Source: Anadara kagoshimensis (taxonomy: Eukaryota > Mollusca > Bivalvia > Arcoida > Arcidae). From it: 64,000 nucleotides of DNA. This document shows positions 1-62,738 of this stretch, piece by piece. The notes below the pieces were generated by a model. It saw only the letters and a program-made list of their open reading frames with translations, was not told the DNA's origin and made no database searches. The number at the start of each line of letters is the position of its first letter. The first letter of the stretch is position 1. The position numbers were made by a program, and so were the translations under genes. The stretch is from NCBI GenBank assembly GCA_021292105.1, contig CM037874.1:35452185-35516184 (forward strand), written 5' to 3'.

Positions 1-288
1 TGTCCAATTCTTGCATACTTTCATAACAAAAAGAAAAATTAACTTCATATCTTATAATTCAATATTTATATTTTTTCAACAACAAATAAACAATTTAAAT
101 AACAATATTGACGTAGCTAATAAAAATAGCATCGCTATGGCGTAGGAATTCAAATGCCTCTGTGCGTAATATAAGATAATAAGATGATGTTACTGATAGC
201 CAATCCATTCATGCAAACGTAAGAAAAAAACATGACCAATCAAAATGCTTGAAACAAAGGAGAATTGAATTATTTAATTTTATTAAAG
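1..288. other. Left edge, intron of gene A
   Basis: AT-rich, no exon or repeat recognised. It should be the intron between the coiled-coil exon (off window) and the stalk exon. Confidence 0.5.
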
Positions 289-12250
<11,962 letters not shown>

Positions 12251-12273: not shown

Positions 12274-12293
12274 AATAAACGTAATTGAATAAA
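12274..12293 (+). promoter_or_regulatory. Poly(A) signals of gene A
   Basis: Two AATAAA hexamers lie at 12274-12279 and 12288-12293, 24 and 38 bases after the stop codon. The second runs directly into the end of a retroelement copy, so cleavage probably falls inside inserted DNA. Confidence 0.6.
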
Positions 12294-13136
12294 TCAAAAA
12301 CAAACATACTAATCCATTTCCGAATCACAATCCAGAAGCAAAGTAAACACTTTGGAACTGACAAGTTAGGTTAGACACGTGAACTTCCACCAGGGAAGTG
12401 AGGCCGGGTGCTCCGGAAGGGTAAGCACCTCCTGTTTAGCTAGCTACACCCGCCACGTGTGTAATCAAAATTGTGTGAAAGGAACATCGAACTACGAGAC
12501 GTCAAATATATCCAAGGCAATCCTGGACACAGAGACACCAAACTTATCAACAATACTGTGATGACGGCCATAAAACTTTTTGAGGGTCTTGATAAGCCTA
12601 GGCTTGCAATATCCCTGAGTCAACAATTTATTTGCAAGCAGCCTACTTCGTTGTACAAAGTCCCCATAGTGGGAACAAGCTCTACCATAGCGTATTAATT
12701 GGGAAACAAATACACCGTAAGCAGAAGAAGCAGGTATATTGCTGCATAAAAAAGGAAAGTTGACAATAGAAAAATTGAAGTCATCACGTTTGTCATAAAG
12801 TTTTAAATGTAGCCTTTCCTGTGCGTCATAATTCAGGTATAAGTCTAAATATGAAGCAGAACTTGAGGAATCAGTCGTGTCTTTTATTTCAAGCTCACTA
12901 GGATAGATGACATTTACATAGTCTCCAAATTTAGGATTGTTAAGAGACAGAACGTCATCTATATATCTGTATGTTGAGTTGAATGACTGCGACAGTCTCC
13001 AGATAAAATGTTTCAAGTGACTTAATAAAGATCCTTCTAATATTTTAAGAACATGAACTGGTATGTTTGTACTAAGGCAAAGTTCAATCCCCTTAGTTAA
13101 ATTCGCTGTAATTGGATAATACTGCCTAGAACTCAT
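12293..13136 (-). mobile_element. Retroelement copy of the same family, long open RT part
   Basis: It begins at gene A's second poly(A) hexamer. On the minus strand 13136-12492 stays open for 214 codons and contains TYRYIDDVLSLNNPKFGDYV, then IKDTTDSSSSASYLDLYLNY, LYDKRDDFNFSIVNFPFLCS and KFYGRHHSIVDKF. The first 50 or so codons do not match the part that precedes YIDD in sister copies, so the copy looks rearranged or joined to another segment. It looks young but is not whole. Confidence 0.7.
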
Positions 13137-14955: not shown

Positions 14956-29718
<14,763 letters not shown>

Positions 29719-36790: not shown

Positions 36791-37155
36791 TAAATTTTAC
36801 AGCACTAGACGACCGTTTCGGAATAACTTTAAAAATAATTATAATGATGTAAACTTCAATCTGGAAAATAGCATATTCCAAGTATATAATGGTAATCATT
36901 GGGATGAAATACATACATGATAAGTTAGAAAAGATTGAGTTCATCAAGCAACCTTTGATAACAATGTGTAAGGTATACCAAACTATCTTACTAATAATCA
37001 CTGGTGTACAATTGGAATGCAAGTAAGTAGTAAGTTTCATAAAATCAACAGGGGAAATAATATCCTTGTGCTTGGTAGGCCTTATAAGACCGTGTTTAGG
37101 TATTTATTTCAATTTTCCGTCTAAAATATCATTAGATATGTGAAGTTTTGTCTTC

Positions 37156-37279
37156 TGTCATGTGCTACTTTTGAATTTTTATGAAATAATACAATTCAAA
37201 AGTAGCACATGACAATTTATTGTCATATACCATTTTTTGAATGTATTTTATGATTAAATTCAAAAAATGGTATATGACA
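37156..37279. repeat. Two adjacent perfect 22-bp hairpins
   Basis: Hairpin 1: TGTCATGTGCTACTTTTGAA+TT at 37156-37177 with its exact inverse at 37193-37214, loop 15. Hairpin 2: TGTCATATACCATTTTTTGA+AT at 37221-37242 with its exact inverse at 37258-37279, loop 15. Spacer 6 bp. Confidence 0.9.
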
Positions 37280-37459
37280 CTTCTACAACACAATTATCAA
37301 CATCGATAGATTTATTGCAACCTGTATGCTTTTAATTCTAAGAGATTTTGAGCTATTCAGTGGCTTGTTCTTCATTTAACTGTTTTTTCTTGTTTCCGGT
37401 TTCTTAGGTGTAGCCGGTACATAACGATTTCCCAGATGTTTCTTATCTTATCTTTTTGC

Positions 37460-37742
37460 TTAGTCTGTTTCATTCGCTTCTAGTTGTAGCGTCCTCTGTA
37501 GCGGTCACAGGTGGCCTACTCTATTTTTTAACTCTACAGAGGTGTCTTTAGCGTGCACTGAGACACAAAACCTTAGTTTAAGGTCTCATTCGAAAGACTA
37601 TTTTGGCTTTTTACGGGTCTAGTAGTATAGGCAGGAGATGAATATCATCTCAGAAAATTGCAAAGTCTTCAGTGAGGTTTGAACCCACGACCCTTGATTT
37701 CGGAAGCCAATGACAGTACCACTCGGCCATGTCCGCCCAAAA
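37460..37742 (-). repeat. tRNA-derived SINE, different head
   Basis: On the minus strand the head reads GACATGGCCGAGTGGTACTG and GGGTCGTGGGTTCAAACC, resembling tRNA-Leu/Ser boxes A and B, followed by a body not clearly shared with the 22.8-kb family except AGGTCTCATTCGAAAGA-like spacing. Confidence 0.65.
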
Positions 37743-38833: not shown

Positions 38834-39002
38834 TCACGAACAAATAACACCGACATCTTCGCTATGAAAGCAATTCCCGAGGTTCCATTTCGTGTGTCCA
38901 CATTCGAGTAAACTTTTTTCTCTGCCATTACAAGCAAGGTTATTTAACCATATTGGTCCATGTCCTTGACCGTAAAATGCTCCAGTCTTTGCAGTCCCAC
39001 CA
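38834..39002 (-). CDS. Gene C SRCR domain 4, second half and stop
   Basis: 169-bp terminal exon encoding [41 protein letters not shown] and EDVGVICS, then TGA at 38834-38836. Confidence 0.9.
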
Positions 39003-42000
39003 CTACAAAAGATTATCGTTTTTAGAGTTGGAATCGGATGTTAAAGGTTACTCATATATTCATATTCGAGAAACAGAATCATTTTTTTCGCTTTACACAA
39101 AATAGAATAGTAACAATTCATCTCATATTTGACTATTCTTGTTTTGTTTCAATTGTAAATTATCCAAAAGTATTTAAAAATACAACATACAAACAGAAGC
39201 AGCTCACTCATGGTACAAAGAGTGATGATCTCAAACACTCAAGTCTACCAATATGCGTAATGTACCAACAATGGACATCCCAACTTGTATTTATTAACTG
39301 GGTTTGATAGCACATGTATATCTGTGAACTGAGGATGACATTTTCTCAAACCATAGATAAGTTTTTGCGTTTTAGGTATCAGTTTTTAAGGAAGAAATTT
39401 ACTTTTCTTTCTTATAAAACAAGTTTTTAAAATGCACTACCAAATTATTATCTGTAATATTAATACAAACGTTTTAACAGTCTTTAAATAAATGATTTTT
39501 CTAATCTAGGCTCAATCTAATATGGATTCTTACAAAATGTGATGAATTACTTTACCATCTTGATCATATTTTTTCAAACGCAGCGGATACAGCTAGCTAG
39601 AAAGGGGGTGCATACGTTTTCCACTTAATTTACCAGCTTTTATAGTTGTACTTTACATGTAGGATTGTGATTTCTACACTTAACGCCACTCTCCCTCCTT
39701 AGAAATGAACATAATTCAACTGTTATGTTTTACTTAACACCGGAAGGCCAAGATATAAATATCTAGAGCTGAATAGCGTGTCTGATAAAGTGGCCAAACA
39801 CACTAAGGACTGCAAACAAAAGCCATTAAAGATACCATAAACAAAATTTCAAAGTTTTTGATTGCTAATGTATTTATGTATCCCAATATTGCTGATGTCT
39901 GTTTACTAAATTATCCTGAATATATATCACGTCCATTAGTTCTATATTTATTTCGTACTTTTAATTTTATAGTTGGCCGATTTAGCTGCCTGAACAGGAG
40001 ATATGTACCCTTCTGACAAACCAATTTCATAGTTATCAGTTTTTAACATGGATCGATATTATTTTTAATTATGTTTTGCAATATAATTTCCCAGTACACA
40101 ATCGTCAATTATATATATAAGATATATCTTATAATACTCCTAAATTAGAGCATATGCGAATGGCATCTATTACAGTGAGCTGGACCAATTTCTAATTTAT
40201 GCCATACCTGTATCCAGCCATTCTGCATGCAACAACAGCATCGTTATCATCCCAGCTGTCATCACATATGGTTCCCCATTGACCATTGTGGAATATTTCG
40301 ACTCGGCCAGTTCTTGGTTCTCGGCTATCTACTATTCTTATGATGATATCAACTGGTTTCAAATCTAATAAGCAAAATTATATATATTAAATAGATCGTG
40401 TTGCAGAAAAATAAATTGAATTTGGTAATATCCAGAACAACCGAAAACACTATGCAAACAAACGCAAAATGGTTGCAATAAACGTCAAGAATAGCGAAAA
40501 TCATGTGATATATTTCTATCTTAAATCAATTTATATGAAAGATGTTTCTAATCAAACTCGAATTTTATAAAGGATTTATTATCGTTAAACTACGCAAAAC
40601 GTTACATCGTTTGCAATTGCAACCCATTTGAATTGATGACATCACAACAAAATTATACTGTGATGTCATAGCGTGTGTAGCTTGTCTTACTCTAAGGTAA
40701 GGCAGAAAAAAATTTCCTTTGATAACGTGGGAATTTTTTTTTGTCAGATATGGGAGAAAAAATTCTACTGTTGACTCTCTGCGGGTAAAATTAAGAATAT
40801 CAAATATTACAAAAAGCATTCTCCAAGTACTTGTGTATCGAATTTGTATTTAAGAGATAATGATTTCACCCTGGATATATTTGACGTCCCTTAGTTTTAT
40901 TTTCAATTCATTCCCAATTTTTATTACAAACTTGGCGGTTTCGGTAGCTTAACAGGAGGTGAGTTACCCTTCTGAAACACCCTGCCGAATTTCCTTTTTA
41001 GAAGTTTGCGTGTTAAACCTATTTTATCAGCTTCAAAGTTTTACTTTGCTTTGGGATTTTGTTTTGGAAATGGATTGGTATGTTAGTGTTTGATAAAAAA
41101 GCTAGTAGTGATACTGCAATTACCACAGGCTACCCCGGCATCTTCTTTATGTTGACAGTTAGTGTTGCCCCATTTTGATGTTTGACATTGAACTATGTCG
41201 GATTCATGTCCATGACATCGGACGTCATCCAGCCATATTTTAGAAGTCCCTGATCCATAATAGGCATCTAGGTAAGCAGTACCATTACTATATTAGGAAA
41301 AAATAGTTTAAAGCAGAAAAGCGCAACACACAACAAGACAGAACAATCACCTATTAAGATAGTTGGTTCTACAATTAAGTTATAGTTAGATTAATAGCAT
41401 GAAAGATAGATTCGATCAAAAGATTAATTTAGTATGAATCAATTATTTTCATTTTTTCGCTGTACAATCCCCATAAAAAAGATTAATTTAGTATGAATCA
41501 ATTTTCATTTTTTCGCTGTTCAATCCCTTTCTTTTTTCTGTGTTGTTGATTTTATTATTAATGTAATGTATTTTTTAATAAAGATCACGAGAGGATGCAT
41601 ATTTGTCAATCAATAACCTGAGTGTATGCGTTCCTTGGTACCATCATGAATCACCTGTATTTTTAAGGTATATGGTAATATTTAACAACAATTCTGTGGT
41701 GTATATGTCTATAAATAAATTTACCTTAAATTAGCCTCTTTAATTAAATTTTAAACACTTTTACTGGTTTTATGGCTATTGTTCACAAGTTATACACATA
41801 TATTCAGAAGTTAATATTTCTAAAATTTAAAGGAGTATATATGTATACATATAAGATTCGCCAGTATACCACGTGGTACCCCTTAGTTTTGTGTTGTTAA
41901 CCTATTTCCAATGGATATTTATCAGTAAGTAGATAAGGAGTTGATTATGACAACGTTATCAAGATATGCTATGCTATTAAAATTTGGTTTTACTGATATA

Positions 42001-45000
42001 TTAAGATGAAAGTATGTATACTCATATTTGTTTTTGTTGAAAACGTTAAAATTATTGATTAAACAAAAAGTATTCTCGACACGATAGACATTTGATAGAA
42101 CGTTTGAAAGAAACAATTTTATTATAACTCATTAGTAAAATACGATACTATCTGCCATTTGATTGGATCGTTGGATCATGTGATCAGGGTGGAGAAAACA
42201 TCATGTATCCCTCTGAAAACACCATATCCTACCTCCTCGGAACACATCATGACGTCACAATGATATGACGTCATCGATTGAAAATCGGTCCCGACGTTCT
42301 AGCGTTAGCGATGAGGTCCGATAGGAGAAAAATCAATGAATCGGAGAAGGAATGATGCTTTCAGACTGTTTTTTTTTAAAATAGTTTTCTTTCTTTCTGT
42401 CTTTCTTATGGTTATCTTTCGGTATAATAAACAATTTATTGCCTTTGTTTGAGGGAGATCTCTCTCGCTCAAAGGCAATAAATTTATAACGTTTCATTAG
42501 GCGTGTTTTTTAAATAAAAACCCTTATCCTTTTTTGATGCTCAAGACAAAATAGCATCAATTAGCTTTTTTCATACATCTTTGGATATTATGCAATTATT
42601 GTTTTTTGATGAGGTGCATATGGGATTGTACGGACCCGAACAAGTAATACTGACTGAGGCCGTCGGGCCGAGGTGAATATTATTTTGGTCAGATCTGTTG
42701 CTTCCATATCCACCGATATCAAAAGACAGTAATTGTTGTATTATATGACACTTCAAAATGAGATTTTAGTTTACTTAGCAAAATGATCGACATTACTGGA
42801 GACGTTCATCGAGTTGGTAAAGCCGGTTTTTAAAGCTCTTTTAAATAACTTCTTGTTAGTTTAATAGCACTATCTGTTAACTTTTTTGCCCATGGCTTCT
42901 TTAGATGTCAAAATTGCCTTCAGTATTCTAAGATTTCCACAGACGCAAACGTTTACACTGCTCATCATCCCACATTTCATTTTCGTGAATTGCAAAAACC
43001 GTGTCAATGACGTCAGCACATGCTATCTTTTGACGTCTAATTAATTATGACGTCAAAATTTTCGGAAAGTCCCATGAAGTTACATGAAAGAAGACATATG
43101 ATTGGATATTATCTCGAGTCTTGTCCAATTAGACAAACCAAAACTCAGAAAAGTGTCGATTGAATTTGTAAATTCCCTACTCTGTTTAGGGGTACTATCT
43201 GGGATGAAAATGTGATATCTAGGTGGATATCGCATTTTATCCTGCGAATTAAATTGCTTCAAGGCCAATCAGATCGTATGAAATTTTTCAGTCATATAAT
43301 AATAAAGGATATTGCATGTCAAACACTTATATTCAACTCGAGAAGTAAAAGTAAATTTGTCGCTGTTAAATACATGTGATAGCTTTCAATAAAAAACGTT
43401 AATGTTTAATTTACATATTACCCGTATCCCAACATTTTGCACACGACGTTAGCGTCCTTGTCACTCCACGAATCATCACAAATCGTTCCCCACTGACCAT
43501 TATGAAATATCTCTACTCTTCCTTTATTAGATCCTGTTCCATTAACTAACCTCACATTGGCTAAATTAAAAATGAGAAGTTTATAAATATATTGGAATTA
43601 TCCCTACACAGTCTATAGGAAACACCTAGTATATCGAAAAATCTAAAAACATTTTTATAGTTAATTATGCCTCTTGATACCCTGTGGAAAAAAGGGCCGC
43701 ATTTTTTCTATAATTGTAAAATTCCATTTCAAAATAATGGGTTTGAACCCATGTATTGTAGAAAACAATATGTTATATGTTGAGGCTATTAAAAATTACA
43801 AATTATATTTTGTGTCTATTTACATTTAAAAACAAGCCATTTTTTGATTGTAAAAATATAAGAAATGTAATGAGCGGCAAAAATGGTATGCAATAAAGAG
43901 AACAAAACTAGAACTTTTGATATATTAGTTTGAACAACACGCTTATACATTGACAAATATATTCAATAAGCATTTGCCGTGTTTATTGCCGTTTAATTTA
44001 TAATAGGAAACAACTGATATTTTAAACTTCTGTGACATTAAAAAGTAATGCTTGATTACAATAACTTTTTCTATAATTTGAACTGGAATATAAAGCTTAA
44101 CGTATGTCATTTCGTTTCAAATCTGTTTACAATGACATTCATGTAGCCATATGGTGCAAGTACAGGGAAAGCGGAGAACAGTTCATATCTCATTGTCATA
44201 TTAGAAAGTTGAGATATAGTACTATTTATTGCATACTATTTCTGCACCTCTTATTATAAAAAACAAACATTCCAATCCATGTCTTACAAGTTTTCGAAGG
44301 GTTTTTTATATATTTTATCAAATATTGAGTGCTTATGATAACATCAATACATTGAAAGGGAAATTTTTATGACGTTTAATTTGTTATTATGAAAACAAAT
44401 TTGGACATTATAAAAACAATATATCCATGTAGAATTTACTGGCAACACATTGATTAGTTTAAATATATTTGCTCATAAGATATTTTTTTTAAATCACATT
44501 ACACATTATATATGCTATAAGATAAAAACGTGTTTTTATTCCTAAACTAATAACGACTCCTGAATTAATTTATCTATTTTGATTGCAGATAAAGCATACG
44601 GTTTATTTCTTCTATGCAAGATATCGAAACGTTTGATTCTAAAGTTATATCTTTTCAAAAATCTGATTTGTGAATATTTTATTCAGATTTGGTTAAGGCG
44701 TGTTCAAATTTATGGTATGCATTTAAAAGAAATACCCTAAAAAACTAACCACATTGAACACCGGCGTCTTCTGAGTGATTGCAGTCATTAATTCCCCAAC
44801 CATTATGAGGACATTCTGTGATTACTCCTTCCTGTCCATTACACTGAAGGTAATCCATCCAAATCATTCCATGTCCATCAGGGGGGTTGTATAATGTCCC
44901 GCCTCTGATTGCAAAAAAGAATGTAATAAATTATTCAAATTACAATAAATTTTTGTCTTTCTATTTTCTTTATTTTAACGTCTTAAAGATATTTGGATTT

Positions 45001-48000
45001 TCATAATTTAATCTGAGCACTACTTACGGAGAATTTTATTCCGAAACGACCGTCTAGTGCTGCAAAATTAAAACAGGTTTAGTAAAAATCAATCAAATGC
45101 TCCACTAATGGCAACATGAAAAATATTGGAAATAAATCTTGTGGTTTCTTTATAAGGTGTACAAAGGATTTGGACTTAAAATAAGGATTCTGTGATATAA
45201 TAAAACACAAACATACTATTCCATGTCCGAATCACAATCAAAGTAAAAGCTTTGGAACTAACAAGTTAGGTTAGACACGTAAACTTCATTACAGAGTAAA
45301 TGCTTTGCAGTTGTCTGAAGTTGTTAGAAAAACATAAAACGTAGAGAAAATTCTAAATGTTTGTATTATGCCTTACGTATATCTGTCTAATACGACCTTC
45401 AAGTTTCAATCTATCATAGCTACATCGATTACTAATGAACCTTTATTTGTTTTGTTTCCCTATTAACAAATTCTCTTGGTAGCTAGTGATGTGTCATTTA
45501 TCATAAGTAAATATTAAAAACGTCATTCAAAAATTCAAACCTGTCATTATTCTATAGTTTCGATACATGTCCGTTATAATAAGATTATGCAACGTGCCTT
45601 AAATGTACTGAAGGCATAAACAAAGAATTGAAACTGTTTTTTATGTGTGGTGTTTTTTTCAACTAAAACCAAATGTTGTTTTCCATACATAGTAATTGAA
45701 GTAGTTCATCGCATATCCATATGCTAACACTACTTATGTTATATGAAATGTTTCGTTAAAAAGGGTAGAGATAGCAACAGGGCATTACAGTGACGGATGT
45801 TCAGACGTACAAACGGATGAAGCGACAGTCGGTTGGACATGTACACAGATGAAGTAAATAACATATACCAGTATAAATTTAATTGCACTAGACAGTCGTT
45901 CAGGTATATTATTGTGCAACTAATTTTTTCCAAGTGGTTGAAAAATAATCAAACAAGAAAAAAATATTTAACCAAGTTTAGCTGAGGAAATACTTTGCAC
46001 GAGTAAGTATTGCGGATTTTAAGATTTTAACTAGCAGCATTAGAACATTGTATATTTCTAACAATACAAAAGTATTGATATCCTGGTATCCCCTTTCAGT
46101 TTTGGGGTCATAATAGAGCTTGCAGTTATGTATGTTATCTAAAGCTGTGATGCCAAGATTCCAGTCTTTTAATACAAGTATAGTCGTTTTGGTGTATTCC
46201 GCCATATTAGATTTTTCTATTGTTTTACATACCTATACATCAAAGAAATGCATACATGATTTTGCAAATAAATGTTACAATTTCTTTCAAATCTGTGTTA
46301 TGAACCATGTGGATAATTTATTTACCTTAAACTGAATATGAATAAATTTAGTTTTACTAAAAATGTTAATTATTTGTTGTTACTTGTCAGTTCCAAAGTT
46401 TTTACTTTGCTTCTGGATTGTGATTCGGACATGGATTAGTATGTTTGTTTTTGATTGTTAATCATACGTCGTTCCAATGTTAAACATGATATAACGTCAA
46501 TCGTAATATGATGCATTTCCCTGTAACAATGACGAATTAATGGGTTACTGATTTTATGAATTATTTTATTTGGTCAGTGTTGCTCTGATTCAAATGGCTA
46601 ATTAGTTATCCCTATCTTGTTTGGGAGAATGAAATTGATAGAATTTATTGTTTGAAAAAATGTAACTTACGTCAGCCCGAGCATGGAACATATTACCCTT
46701 GCTTCTTTAGCATCAAAGTCTTTATTGCAAACAGTCCCCCATTGACCATCGTGATAAATCTCAACTCTTCCAGAATATGCATCTGAACCGTCTACCAATC
46801 TTAAATTCCCTTCAAAGATGAAAATACTTGTTAAAATGTGGTTTATTTTTTATCTGTTAAGGATGTGGGCGTGTTAGATGCACATTGTGCCTGCAATTGG
46901 AAGTATAAGGTTTGATTGTTTAAATGTTTAATAGGTTAATATAAAATAGCACAAAAAGCGTGTTACAAGTGCATAATGGAGAATACAGAGAAGAGCATTC
47001 CAGCGCATATGTGCATAACACTTATTAAATCATGTATATTATATGATTTATACTCTGATCTTGTCTTTTTTATGTTAAAGTTTATTCGGTTTCAAACTTT
47101 AAAAGAAAAAGACTAAAATTACAAGGAATGATAAAAAAGGTTCAATCCACTTACCACAGACAACACCGACATCCATATTATGAGTACAGTCATTGTGTCC
47201 AAATTTCAAGTGCTTGCAGTAGTTCAATGAAGTTTCTGATCCTTCACACTGTATGTTTTCAAACCATACCTTACCTATTCCTTGACCAAAGTGTGCTTTA
47301 GAATATGGCGAACCGATACTATATTGAAAAATCAAACCAAAGGAGAAAATCAATGTTATGCGGAATATATAGAAAACATATAACACTAAAATGATATATA
47401 TATCTTGCAACTTGTTCTTACTCTGAAGAATTATAAACCGGGAAATTATTTGATGTCAATCTATTCTTAAACAAATAAGCTTGCAAAAATACGACTTAAT
47501 ACTTTAAGTGTTTTTTTTTCAATTTCGACTTAGACCTCAATTATGACACCCCCAACAGACTACATTTCACATAAATTACAACTTTATTGTTTTTCTATTG
47601 TCAACGTTCCTGTTCTTCTATGCGCTAAATTACATGTTCTGCTTATTGTATATATGTTACACAATTACTTCACTATGGTAGAGCTTGTTTGAACTAACGA
47701 AGCAAGCTGATTACAAATGCATTGTTGACGCAAGGATAAAGCAAGTTAAGACTTATATAGGCTCTCAAAAAGTTTAATGGACGACATCACAATATTGTTG
47801 ATAAGTATGATTTCTATGTATCCAAAATTAAACTGGGTATATTTGACGTAAAAATATTCGATGTTCTTTTCATTCTCAATTTTAATTTCACACATGGCGG
47901 GTGAAACTAGCTAACCAGAAGGCGTTTACCCTTCCAGAGCACACAGTATGTACGTATCACTTCCAAGGTGAAATCGCGACTTTTTCTAATTTTTCTTTTG

Positions 48001-49221
48001 AGATAATGAATTAAATCGGGATCTGTATATTTGTATGTATAAGCGTAAAGCATCAACTTTACAAGTATACTAGACACATTTGATGGGGAAGCATAAAAAG
48101 ATCTATCTACTATTCATGCATAGCAAAATACTCAAACAATAAAATAACTTTTTGTAGTAGTTAAGGCTCCATAGATATTTATAATATGTCCTAATTTCCT
48201 TATGTCTTTTCAATTTTTTAATGTGTTTTTTATAATTGGATTTAAAACATTTGAAATAATTATAAAACTGAATTTAAACTCACTTTATCCATGATTGGAT
48301 ATGAATCATGGAAATAGTCGATGTTATAAAATTGAATACAGTAACAGTTATGTCTTTTACAATGACACTTTTTTGACAATCGTCTCCCGTTCGACTATTG
48401 TCTCTATCAGTATTTTATTTTTATCACTGGAAGAACTGCTATTCAAATACTTACTTACTTTTTAAGATTTTTAATACCGACTTTTATGTTACGAGTAAAT
48501 TAACCTTGTGTTTTTTGCGATTTTTAAAATTTTTCTTGTAGAACATTTTGTGTTCTAGGTGAAAACAAAACTTTACTAAATAAAAGTTCAAATTACCTGT
48601 ATCCAAGCATTTTACAAACTACTGTTGCATCATGTTCATCCTAATGGTCGTCACAAATAGAACCCCAGCTCCCACTATAGAACACCTCTACCCGGCCCAT
48701 ATATGGACTTGGACTTCCAACAAGTCTTACGTTGGCTAAAAAAACAATACAGATTTAACCAATTGCGCCCGATACAAAATATTTAGATGTATGCCAAATG
48801 TAATGACTAATTTTTCTATTGTCAAATTTCCTTAATATAGTAAGCCTGCTTCTTCTGCTTGTGTTGTTTTGTTTTACAATTAACACTTCTAAGGTAAATG
48901 TAGTTCACACTAACGAAACAAGCTGTTAACAAGTTCATTGTTGACGCAGGGATATTTCAAGGACTTATCAAAGCCCCCAAAACGTTTTATGGCCGTCGTC
49001 AAAATTAAAAGTATGATGCCTCTGTATCTAAAAATACCCAGGGTATATGTAATCTCCCATAGTTCGAAGTTCCTTTCATTCTAAAAATATAGGATGATTA
49101 CCAATTCGGAACACCCAGTTTAACTTCCCTGACGGCTTATTTCTTAAATAACTAAACGTTTGTATTATCAAACGGGGCCGACATCTAACATTAAAATACA
49201 TTATAAATAACGGGCGCGCGC

Positions 49222-53893: not shown

Positions 53894-54306
53894 GAAGTTC
53901 TTGATCTTCAAGAAACATTAGTACATCTGCAGAAACAGCAAACTGCTTTGATGACGCCATTTTTATACAGGTTACAGGCGACGTAATGGCTACTGACGTA
54001 ATATTTTTGGGAACCAAGGAAGATAATCACTAGAGACCTAATATAACCCATGTTAGGTTACTAATTGACCAATGGAAATAAAGAAATTTATATATAAAGA
54101 ACACATTTTATCTATACCATGGCAAATATACATTGTTTATTTTAACTGTGAATCCTAACACTACCCAAGTGATAATTTGATCATCGTATATGAATAGTTT
54201 TAATAAAAGGTCAAGCGGGCGGGTTGTCAATTGTTGTTTGTCTCTACCAGTAATTCGTCCTCGTTGTTTGGAAGATCAATTAAAATATCGATTAAATGGC
54301 ATTTGA

Positions 54307-54620
54307 TCTCGGAAACATAAAAAGTATACTAATTAGTATTAGGTAGATCATAGTTTATTCAACAGACAAGTTTCATTTACATTTCATCTAGGAAACAAAA
54401 AATGTATACTAATTAGTATTAGGTAGATTATTGTTTATTAAACAGACAAGTATTATTTCAATTTATCTAGGAGACATAAAAATGTATACTAATTAGTATT
54501 ACGTAGATCATTATTTATTAAACAGACAAGTATTATTTAAATTTTCTCTGGGAAACATAAAAATGTATACCATAGTATTAGGTAGATCATTGTTAATTTA
54601 ACAGACAAGTATCAATTCCA
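54307..54620 (+). repeat. About 80-bp tandem repeat, four units
   Basis: Each unit has GGAAACATAAAAATGTATAC, TAGTATTAGGTAGATCAT and TTAAACAGACAAGTAT. Units begin near 54307, 54389, 54468 and 54548. A single unit in the duplicate (60100-61015) is split by a retroelement. Confidence 0.85.
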
Positions 54621-54935
54621 TTTTATTTATTTGTCAATCAAAATTTGAATAATATATAAGGAATAATCACCAGTAATATTTAACAACTGTACTAATTCTA
54701 CAAGAATAAAATACATCTCTTTGTAAAGAACACCTGTTTAACAAACAATTTTAATTAATATTTTTTCTATTTTGTATTTAATTTCAAATGCTGTCTCTCA
54801 CTGCCTACGTTCAAATTCCAAGCAGGACAAACCTCAGTGTGTATTTCAGTAAGCGTTCCGAATTTCTCCGAGCATACTGGTTTCCTCAAACATTTCTGAA
54901 GTGTCTGCATCGATATAGTCAACAAAATTGTGTTG

Positions 54936-60126: not shown

Positions 60127-60985
60127 AATCAAAAACAAACATGCTAATCCATGCCCGAATCACAATACAGAAGCAAAGTAAAAACTTTGGAACTGACAAG
60201 TTAGATTAGACACGTGAACTTCCAGCAGGGAAGTGAGGCCGAGTGCTCAGGAAAGGTAAGCACCTCCTGTTTAGCTAACTACATCCGCCACGTGTGCAAT
60301 CAAATCTATGTGAAAGGAACATGGAACCATGAGACGTCAAATATATCCAGGGCAATCCTGGACACAGAGACGTCAAACTTATCAACAATACTGTGATGAC
60401 GGTCATAAATTTTTTTGAGGGCCTTGATAAGCCTAGGCTTGCAATATCCCTTAGTCAAAAATTTATTCGTTATCAGCCTACTTCGTTGTACAAAGTCACC
60501 GTAGTGGGAACAAGCTCTACCATAACGTATTAATTGGGAAACAAATACACCATAAGCAGGTGAAGCAGGTATATTGCTGCATAAAAAAGGAAAGTTAACG
60601 ATAGAAAAATTGAAGTCATCACGTTTGTCATAAAGTCTAAATATGAAACAGAACTTGAGGAATCAGTCGTGTCTTTTATTTTAAGCTCACTAGGATAGAT
60701 GACATTTACATAGTCTCCAAATTTAGGATTGTTAAGAGACATAACGACATCTATATATCTGTATGTTGAGTTGAATAATTTGGGGACAGTCTTCGCTCCA
60801 GATTTAACAAGGATCTGCATAAATTCTACTTCATAAGAATAAAGAAACAAATCAGCAAGGAATGGTGCACAGTTTGTACCCATTGGTATACCGATTGTTT
60901 GCTGAAACACTTTATTAACAAACACAACAAATATGTTATCTATCAAAAACTCCAACATTTTGTTGATGGTATCTTCAGCATATTT
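60127..60985 (-). mobile_element. Longest retroelement copy, broken
   Basis: It sits inside the 80-bp repeat family (GTATATTAGGTA on the left, CCATTGTTTATTTAACAGAC on the right). The minus strand shows FQQTIGIPMGTNCAPFLADL, FLYSYE, the YIDD region and IYPSEL, then the leader and terminus AATCAAAAACAAACATGCTA. The upstream part of the RT is absent, as in all copies here, so copies are 5' truncated. Confidence 0.7.
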
Positions 60986-61029: not shown

Positions 61030-61650
61030 AGGAAATAATCATCATTTACTTGTTGTATATCGTCGAATAATACACGGACCGGAGTTAACATGCGGAAGAA
61101 TATATCACGAGGTGGCTATGCCATCGAGTGATTTATTTGCCGTATATTAACGAAAATTATAACATGAATTAGATAAAAATGATTGCAATAAATATTGCGA
61201 AATCTTTCTTCAAAAGTACATTTGACTATCTACTTGCAAAGAGGTCCATTGATACAATTTGGTTGTTGAGATTGCCTCCATTGAAATCAATTATTTTATG
61301 AATTAAAATTACATCACAACCATACTAGACAACAAAAAACATGACATCATAAGATAAGCAAGGGATTACGTCTTTAAAACGAAACAGCGATTGGTATATC
61401 GTTTTTTATACCACGGGTTGCTCTCCTCATGTTTTATATAAGGAAAAACACAGGTTATGTTACAATTAAGAAATAATCAACATTTACCCGTGGTATATCG
61501 CCGAATATACATGGATCGAAATTCACATGCGGAAGAATATATCACGAGGTGGCTTTGCATGTTAACATGCGGCGAATATATATATCACTCGGTGGCAAAG
61601 CCTCCTCGTGATATATTCTTCCGCATGTGAACTACGGTCCGTGTTAAAAT
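61030..61650. mobile_element. Palindromic repeat block
   Basis: ACATGCGGAAGAATATATCA and CGAGGTGGCT occur directly at about 61090 and 61518, and inverted at 61595-61640 (AGCCTCCTCGTGATATATTC, TTCCGCATGTGAAC). 61518-61640 is a long hairpin. It looks like two degraded foldback elements, absent from the homologous segment at 54.65 kb. Confidence 0.6.
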
Positions 61651-62184: not shown

Positions 62185-62257
62185 GCTTATTGACTTATTT
62201 CAGACATAAATAATAAATATAAAGCCTTGGTATCTACTTTTTGATATTTAATTTTTA

Positions 62258-62714
62258 CTGTAGGAACCACTTTGACTGTGACAGTAAAATACTCTTTATA
62301 TCCATAGAAAATCAAATTAATTTGAATAAAGATCGATATTTTTCACTTACTTGTACCTAGTCGTAACAGGAAATCTGTATGCGCATCCGCTATTAGCCCA
62401 AAATATATATGCATAGGGTAAAACGTTGGTGCTATGGGAATTTACCATGTTGAAAAACCAGGCAAATGACGGATTTTGTTGCGCATATGACGTAAAGCGG
62501 TGTAAACATCGTCCTTTTCGCATGTGTAAAATCCCTATACCGCCAACATTTTCCATTCTACAGACATACTTTATGACAATCGCGGGGGCGCATACAGATT
62601 TCCTATTACGACTAGGAACAAGTAAGTGAAAAAGATCAAACTTTATTCAAATTTATTTGATTTTCAATGGATATAAAGAGTATTTTACTGTCACAGTCAC
62701 AGTGGTTCCTACAG
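62258..62714. mobile_element. 457-bp MITE with about 135-bp inverted repeats
   Basis: The left arm (62258-about 62395, CTGTAGGAACCACTTTGACT...) and right arm (about 62582-62714, ...CAGTGGTTCCTACAG) are inverted copies with few mismatches. TA flanks both ends (62256-62257, 62715-62716). The homologous segment at 55.05 kb has no insertion here. This suggests a Tc1/mariner-type non-autonomous element. Confidence 0.85.
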
Positions 62715-62738
62715 TAATTCATGTATTCTTGTCTGATG

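Follow-up and report, generated by a model that had tools for sequence, protein, structure and literature searches.

MITEs, including palindromic and tandemly arranged ones, are already known (PMC1784062, PMC2872659), and several systems, as described in the available portions of the papers cited, resemble in part the 124-bp element of Anadara reported here, which is framed by 4-bp target-site duplications (TSDs). Made1 is likewise tiny, non-coding and nearly all inverted repeat, and folds as a single hairpin; however, it consists of one 80-bp hairpin with 37-bp arms and comes from the mariner element Hsmar1 (PMC1784062), whereas the Anadara element carries hairpin halves inside a second palindrome and has 4-bp TSDs of varied sequence. 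The CMITEs of corals are MITEs of about 100 bp in tandem arrays, attributed to replication slippage, but they have TTAA TSDs and piggyBac-like ends, and no internal hairpin pairs are described in the available text of that report (PMC2872659). Among elements with similar ends, Ginger1 and Ginger2 share TGTNR ends, which the TGTCA of our element fits, and 4-bp TSDs; yet the TSDs of Ginger1 are CCGG or CCGT, neither of which occurs among the 62 exact TSDs of the element, and Ginger2 targets RTATAY, whereas the TSDs here are varied and TATA is absent from the 62 (PMC2836005). IS481EU elements have TGT...ACA ends and, in several families, 4-bp TSDs, both found here, but were reported from parabasalids and also make TSDs of about 15 bp, the likeness being one of ends and TSD length (PMC10045372). 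The comparison with Ginger likewise concerns ends and TSDs, no transposase being linked to the Anadara family. Galileo, a foldback element of Drosophila, is much longer than the Anadara element. Dominated by terminal inverted repeats, to which some copies are reduced, it is a case in which template switching during gap repair has been proposed; it differs in belonging to the P superfamily and in having TSDs of 7-8 bp (PMC4168063).

Twin hairpins in the window

The window, i.e. the whole stretch of 64,000 nucleotides that was analysed (C18:35452185-35516184), contains one copy of the element. The family occurs in forms which we call AA (A, ATTAAT, reverse complement of A), BB (reverse complement of B, ATATAT, B) and AB, which consists of the left half of AA and the right half of BB, each with its part of the spacer. 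The element is a dimer: two hairpin halves, each in version A or B, lie inverted to one another, and the window copy is of the AB form:

37152-37155, strand not applicable: left target-site duplication, CTTC
37156-37279, plus strand: whole element, AB type (A half, ATTTAT, B half), 124 bp, ends TGTCAT...ATGACA; copies throughout the genome have the family boundaries at these ends, and one copy (L025) is identical
37156-37177, plus strand: A half, outer arm (terminal inverted repeat)
37178-37192, plus strand: A half, loop
37193-37214, plus strand: A half, inner arm, the exact reverse complement of 37156-37177
37215-37220, plus strand: central spacer ATTTAT, interpreted as one half of ATTAAT (AA) joined to one half of ATATAT (BB)
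37221-37242, plus strand: B half, inner arm
37243-37257, plus strand: B half, loop, a relative of the A loop in inverse orientation
37258-37279, plus strand: B half, outer arm (terminal inverted repeat)
37280-37283, strand not applicable: right target-site duplication, CTTC

Both hairpins (37156-37214 and 37221-37279) have a 22/15/22 layout and are separated by the 6 bp of ATTTAT. The arms of the first are 100% complementary, and the second also has an extended form of 25/9/25 at 96%. The longest perfect arm in 100 first-order Markov simulations of the window (loop of at most 60) was 10-15 bp, so an adjacent pair of 22-bp arms is not due to chance; a longer perfect arm of 28 bp is present elsewhere in the window (61522-61631). 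The earlier note, made from the letters of this DNA, had described two perfect hairpins of this geometry six bases apart, and its coordinates hold, the pair being far beyond chance in the simulations. It was also right that the arms of the two hairpins are related and differ in a paired manner while each hairpin is internally perfect: four differences, all transitions, plus one extra T in a run of T were found between them, each compensated in the partner arm. The resemblance of the loops in inverse orientation, likewise noted before, was confirmed (11/15 identical ungapped, P ~0.007 for the better of two orientations; P 0.02 when gapped), but as stand-alone evidence it was dropped as weak. 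Copies elsewhere in the genome account for it, since the loops of the window copy look inverted because the halves of the element are themselves inverted relative to each other.

By its content the window is eukaryotic: it has one ORF of at least 150 aa, scattered exons of scavenger receptor cysteine-rich (SRCR) domains, one collagen-like exon (288-386) and many repeats. The SRCR exons form arrays of apparently three related genes, at 288-12187 (plus strand), 16980-26104 (minus strand) and 40264-48697 (minus strand). The element lies ~1.6 kb beyond 38838-39008, which was judged to be the last exon of a minus-strand SRCR gene because of its similarity to the SRCR exons at 14960-15130 and 12076-12139. 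A tRNA-like stretch at 37670-37731 (minus strand), 400 bp from the element, scored 20.9 bits, below the Rfam gathering score of 29, and is perhaps the head of a tRNA-derived SINE. A high-copy interspersed repeat is present at 2763-3610, 12292-12998, 16131-16657, 17883-18603 and 60127-60961 and as fragments, the longer copies being 79-92% identical; the two of its short ORFs that were tested matched no Pfam family. Two further inverted repeats, both perhaps MITE-like, were seen at 62255-62717 (189-nt arms, 85%) and 61509-61644 (50-nt arms, 90%, with a perfect 28-bp core), and two tandem arrays at 9810-10057 (61-bp unit, 4.1 copies, 96% matches) and 54300-54626 (80-bp unit, 4.1 copies, 86%).

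A dispersed family with target-site duplications

The genome (1,115,223,567 bases in 36 contigs) was searched with three queries, and the copies sampled are the best-scoring ones, not a random draw. The first query, 221 bp around the hairpins, gave 94 matches, with the best 40 places of 1563 loose candidates being scored, and 39 places besides the window were added to the sample. The BB query added 35 new places among the best 40 scored of 867 candidates, and the AA query, for which the best 40 of 1597 were scored, added 30, one more lying inside L117 and nine being already in the set. Many of the matches, on many contigs, span exactly from hairpin end to hairpin end (query positions 57-180). 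Among the first 75 copies (74 and the window) there were 24 AB, 10 AA and 41 BB. One copy on contig C2 (L025) is identical to the window copy over 124/124 positions and has AACA on both sides. The AB matches are more diverged: among the best 40 of the 1563 places, only the window and this copy match the AB reference exactly. An exact search of the genome found the BB core 72 times, a number obtained on each strand because the core is a palindrome, and its reversed control 0 times. Flanks shared through larger duplications were noted for L049/L135, L120/L121 and L098/L099; two further groups, L032/L034 and L033/L041/L058, have look-alike flanks and are partly still included in the counts. At L109 on contig C8, ten matches resembling the B arm (at most 4 mismatches) were seen within 5 kb, possibly a nest of old copies.

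Searches in other collections gave little. Degenerate patterns of the arm and of the hairpin had 0 matches in viral_contigs, the arm pattern had 15 in genome_contigs (257 Gb), about the number expected by chance according to an estimate made without a control run, and BLAST of plasmids and phages with the element returned only short weak matches. One of the 15, in a Lactiplantibacillus hairpin (L001:4425-4474) of which one arm nearly matches the A arm, was rejected as a relative and read as a terminator plus coincidence, because its polarity is opposite, with the T-tract outward, and it lies just downstream of an ORF.

An exact 4-bp TSD was found in 62 of the 69 complete copies, compared with 43 of 4692 control pairings of left and right flanks from different copies. 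In the enlarged set the proportion was 100 of 112 end-to-end-aligned copies with distinct flanks, leaving 12 complete copies without an exact TSD, and an independent scan for hairpins found one in 84 of 90 dimers. Target preference is weak and palindromic: at 70% of 61 sites, read on both strands, the base two positions outside the TSD is T, and the middle of the TSD is mostly A or T. When the flanks were joined, 15 of 102 matched related sequence across the junction among the sampled loci and the window. Related empty sites with one copy of the TSD were identified for the triple element L048 (L100, 94% over 158 bp) and for L080 (L113, 88% over 154 bp), junction matches in simple repeats such as L067 being left out of this evidence. 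Within the window, the paralogous gene copy could not serve for such a comparison, the region downstream of the neighbouring SRCR gene being too diverged to align across the site.

The element is short and non-coding, ends in 22-bp terminal inverted repeats, is flanked by TSDs and has many dispersed similar copies, which are the marks of a MITE. The twin hairpins of the window make up a single copy from such a family, a young, non-coding DNA transposon 124 bp long with 4-bp TSDs, and that the family is mobile we regard as virtually certain. An autonomous partner was sought next to B arms followed by A or C. Nineteen of 32 such arms were examined next to the arm and all 19 were hairpin variants, ten more aligned to the element at least partly, and no partner was seen at these 29 of the 32, ten of which had only about 200 bp of flank.

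Forms, decay and symmetry of the copies

The dimers are often perfectly symmetrical. Among the best-scoring copies, 33 of 41 BB were identical, perfect 124-bp palindromes; of 41 AA, 19 were identical perfect palindromes, and 28 were perfect palindromes of 120-124 bp. Other numbers of hairpins occur as well, and TSDs were exact at three solo hairpins (L098, L108, L117) and two triple ones (L048, L158). In the hairpin scan, 38 of 41 single-hairpin groups with distinct flanks had no exact TSD; some of these are halves of dimers whose other half was missed, and others may be solo hairpins. Solo hairpins could be deletion products of dimers. Two multi-hairpin elements were seen within single target duplications: L159:244-457, with two BB centres inside one GATC-flanked stretch, and L048:205-395, inside a duplication of CTTG. 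In the latter, the third unit resembles the part between the centre and the right end repeated directly, as if made by replication slippage.

To follow the upkeep of pairing, 19 further AB copies were set against the window copy over 836 arm-pair cells, of which 732 were unchanged and 42 were gaps. The changes comprised 58 one-sided (12 of them giving G-U), 3 both-sided and paired, and 1 both-sided and unpaired, the one-sided ones being partly common by descent and hence not all independent. This excess of one-sided over paired changes indicates that pairing is not kept up locally and that inserted copies decay freely. The paired changes between the twin hairpins separate two half-lineages of a mobile element.

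Two other accounts of the perfect hairpins have to be weighed against these data. According to published work, template switching can create perfect hairpins and repair them (PMC8794818, PMC8604942, in their available parts), and two neighbouring imperfect repeats might have been made perfect in place in this way, without transposition; a 4-bp match of flanks at the spacing of the element is in fact found by chance at 446 of 63,850 window positions. Such a local accident is nonetheless barely credible in the face of an identical 124-bp copy on another contig with a TSD of its own and of a dispersed family with matching ends. It is refuted as the whole story, although the same process may still act on the masters. 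That the locus produces small RNAs, the stems being precursors of 22-nt RNAs kept perfect by selection on RNA pairing, is very improbable as well. MITE hairpins can become miRNA genes, as mir-548 did from Made1 (PMC1784062), the folds are stable (z ~ -10.7 for a 171-nt region), and the four substitutions between the arms are without exception transitions, the pattern that change by way of G-U pairs would leave. Against this reading stand the dispersed mobile copies with TSDs, the preponderance of one-sided decay in the AB arms, and the Rfam search of the window, with 0 families at gathering score; its 47 sub-threshold hits, belonging to many unrelated families, were read as what any good hairpin would obtain by chance. 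The stems are also short, 22 bp with no pairing directly extending the stem bases in the 171-nt fold. Drosha requires a stem of about 33-35 bp in a pri-miRNA, and the 22-bp stems fall short of this. An AB transcript is predicted to fold into two hairpins, and AA and BB stretches (cut off-centre) into one long stem each; production of siRNA from the latter is conceivable.

To explain the perfect arms, the earlier note had proposed either selection on pairing or correction of one arm by the other, with a hint at small-RNA precursors, and had named a young MITE as the alternative, to be recognised by a lack of small RNAs together with many genomic copies that have decayed arms. The second of these two signs was observed: a dispersed family with TSDs and one-sided decay. 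Local upkeep of pairing has to be given up in view of the 58 one-sided changes against 3 paired ones, while correction survives for the masters of AA, as judged from their mirror variants and the concordance of their halves.

The 41 AA copies comprise 16 distinct sequences. Three variants are common to several copies, and two of them are mirror pairs: 37C>T with 88G>A, in 5 palindromic copies and 2 further carriers, and 38del with 86del, in 2 palindromic copies and 3 further carriers, one of which is palindromic with an extra central deletion. The third, 61del, lies in the central spacer. One more mirror pair (36A>G with 89T>C) was seen once, in L047, and the remaining private changes are one-sided. 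The left and right halves carried the same haplotype at four loop sites in 41/41 copies, as against a mean of 21 and a maximum of 30 in 10,000 trials with permuted right halves; as concordant copies are clonal within variants, this amounts to about three or four independent events. When 16 AB copies were scored, haplotypes GACA and GATA were present in both AA and AB, GGC-, GATC and GTC- in AB only, and GAC- and GGCA in AA only. BB behaves differently: of 47 copies, 33 are identical and 14 each have a sequence of their own, and no mirror variant is common to several of the 47. In BB copies collected by the B-arm-context search, 37C>T or 88G>A turns up repeatedly, but this is an effect of the search pattern and was left out. 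The change 106C>A was found in four BB copies (L089, L107, L151, L156), in three of them unmatched at the mirror site 19, and a deletion of two central bases is common to four (L089, L105, L116, L151). Older AB copies have a recurrent one-sided change at the place of the B half that corresponds to 106C>A. These one-sided changes, common to older BB and AB copies, suggest that older masters were not always perfectly symmetrical.

Origin of the symmetry

A transposase encoded elsewhere would recognise the 22-bp arm, of which there are four per element, and would move any unit bounded by an outward pair of arms. Integrase-like enzymes leave TG...CA ends and duplications of 3-6 bp (PMC2836005, PMC10045372, in the parts available), which makes a DDE-type transposase, working in trans on the TGTCAT arm, the candidate. 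During replication or gap repair the polymerase would fold back on reaching an arm or the central spacer and copy one half as a mirror image; on AB elements or single hairpins this would give new AA or BB palindromes, and the copies would then decay independently. Template switching between the arms of inverted repeats, which homogenises the arms and inverts the loops, has been described in yeast genes (available text of PMC8604942) and inferred for RNA genes (available text of PMC8794818). Taken together, a dimeric MITE moved by a trans-acting transposase, with masters made by fold-back, is the best joint explanation (probability about 0.85).

On fold-back copying as the cause of the symmetry we are more reserved. 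The AA mirror-pair variants, the concordant halves of all 41 copies and the sharing of GACA and GATA haplotypes between AA and AB seem to speak for it, and we lean towards it, with a confidence slightly reduced because of the one-sided changes common to older copies, which count against it. The direction from AB to AA and BB is unproven, as old-looking BB copies exist and AB could form from an AA half and a BB half. Separate palindromic families AA and BB might indeed have been joined at their shared centre by recombination or template switching, the AB form being a secondary hybrid and the symmetry of AA and BB ancestral. The spacer ATTTAT, half ATTAAT and half ATATAT, is what such a junction would give; the old-looking BB copies and the lack of common mirror variants within BB point the same way, and both main types would be symmetrical without fold-back copying. 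We nevertheless find an origin of AB by joining somewhat doubtful, because it leaves unexplained the later mirror-pair variants of AA and the abundance of old-looking copies among the best AB matches, and because the haplotypes of the A half are common to AA variants and AB.

If fold-back copying is the cause, a wider proposition, which we put forward tentatively, is that the hairpin half is the unit of heredity, that fold-back repeatedly makes palindromic masters and that one-, two- and three-hairpin elements are all mobile. A mutation would then be mirrored at once, and each outward arm would be a potential transposon end. What makes the family unusual is its halves, which are hairpins themselves and behave as interchangeable, mirror-copied units. 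In the open-licence literature, repeat libraries such as Repbase aside, the arm sequences occurred in 0 papers, and among the papers listed by the searches no family of two inverted hairpin halves with AA, BB and AB forms was seen. As to the wider problem, the origin of MITEs and the cause of their symmetry are, to our knowledge, unsettled. Here one family holds AB, AA, BB, single and triple forms, many copies of which are identical and therefore recent, and the coexistence of recent forms makes the hypothesis of fold-back masters testable by counting. The locus is also a warning that paired changes in adjacent perfect hairpins can mimic selection on RNA when, as here, they reflect two lineages of a mobile element. 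Should heredity indeed reside in the half, these MITEs would be a family that keeps restoring its own symmetry.
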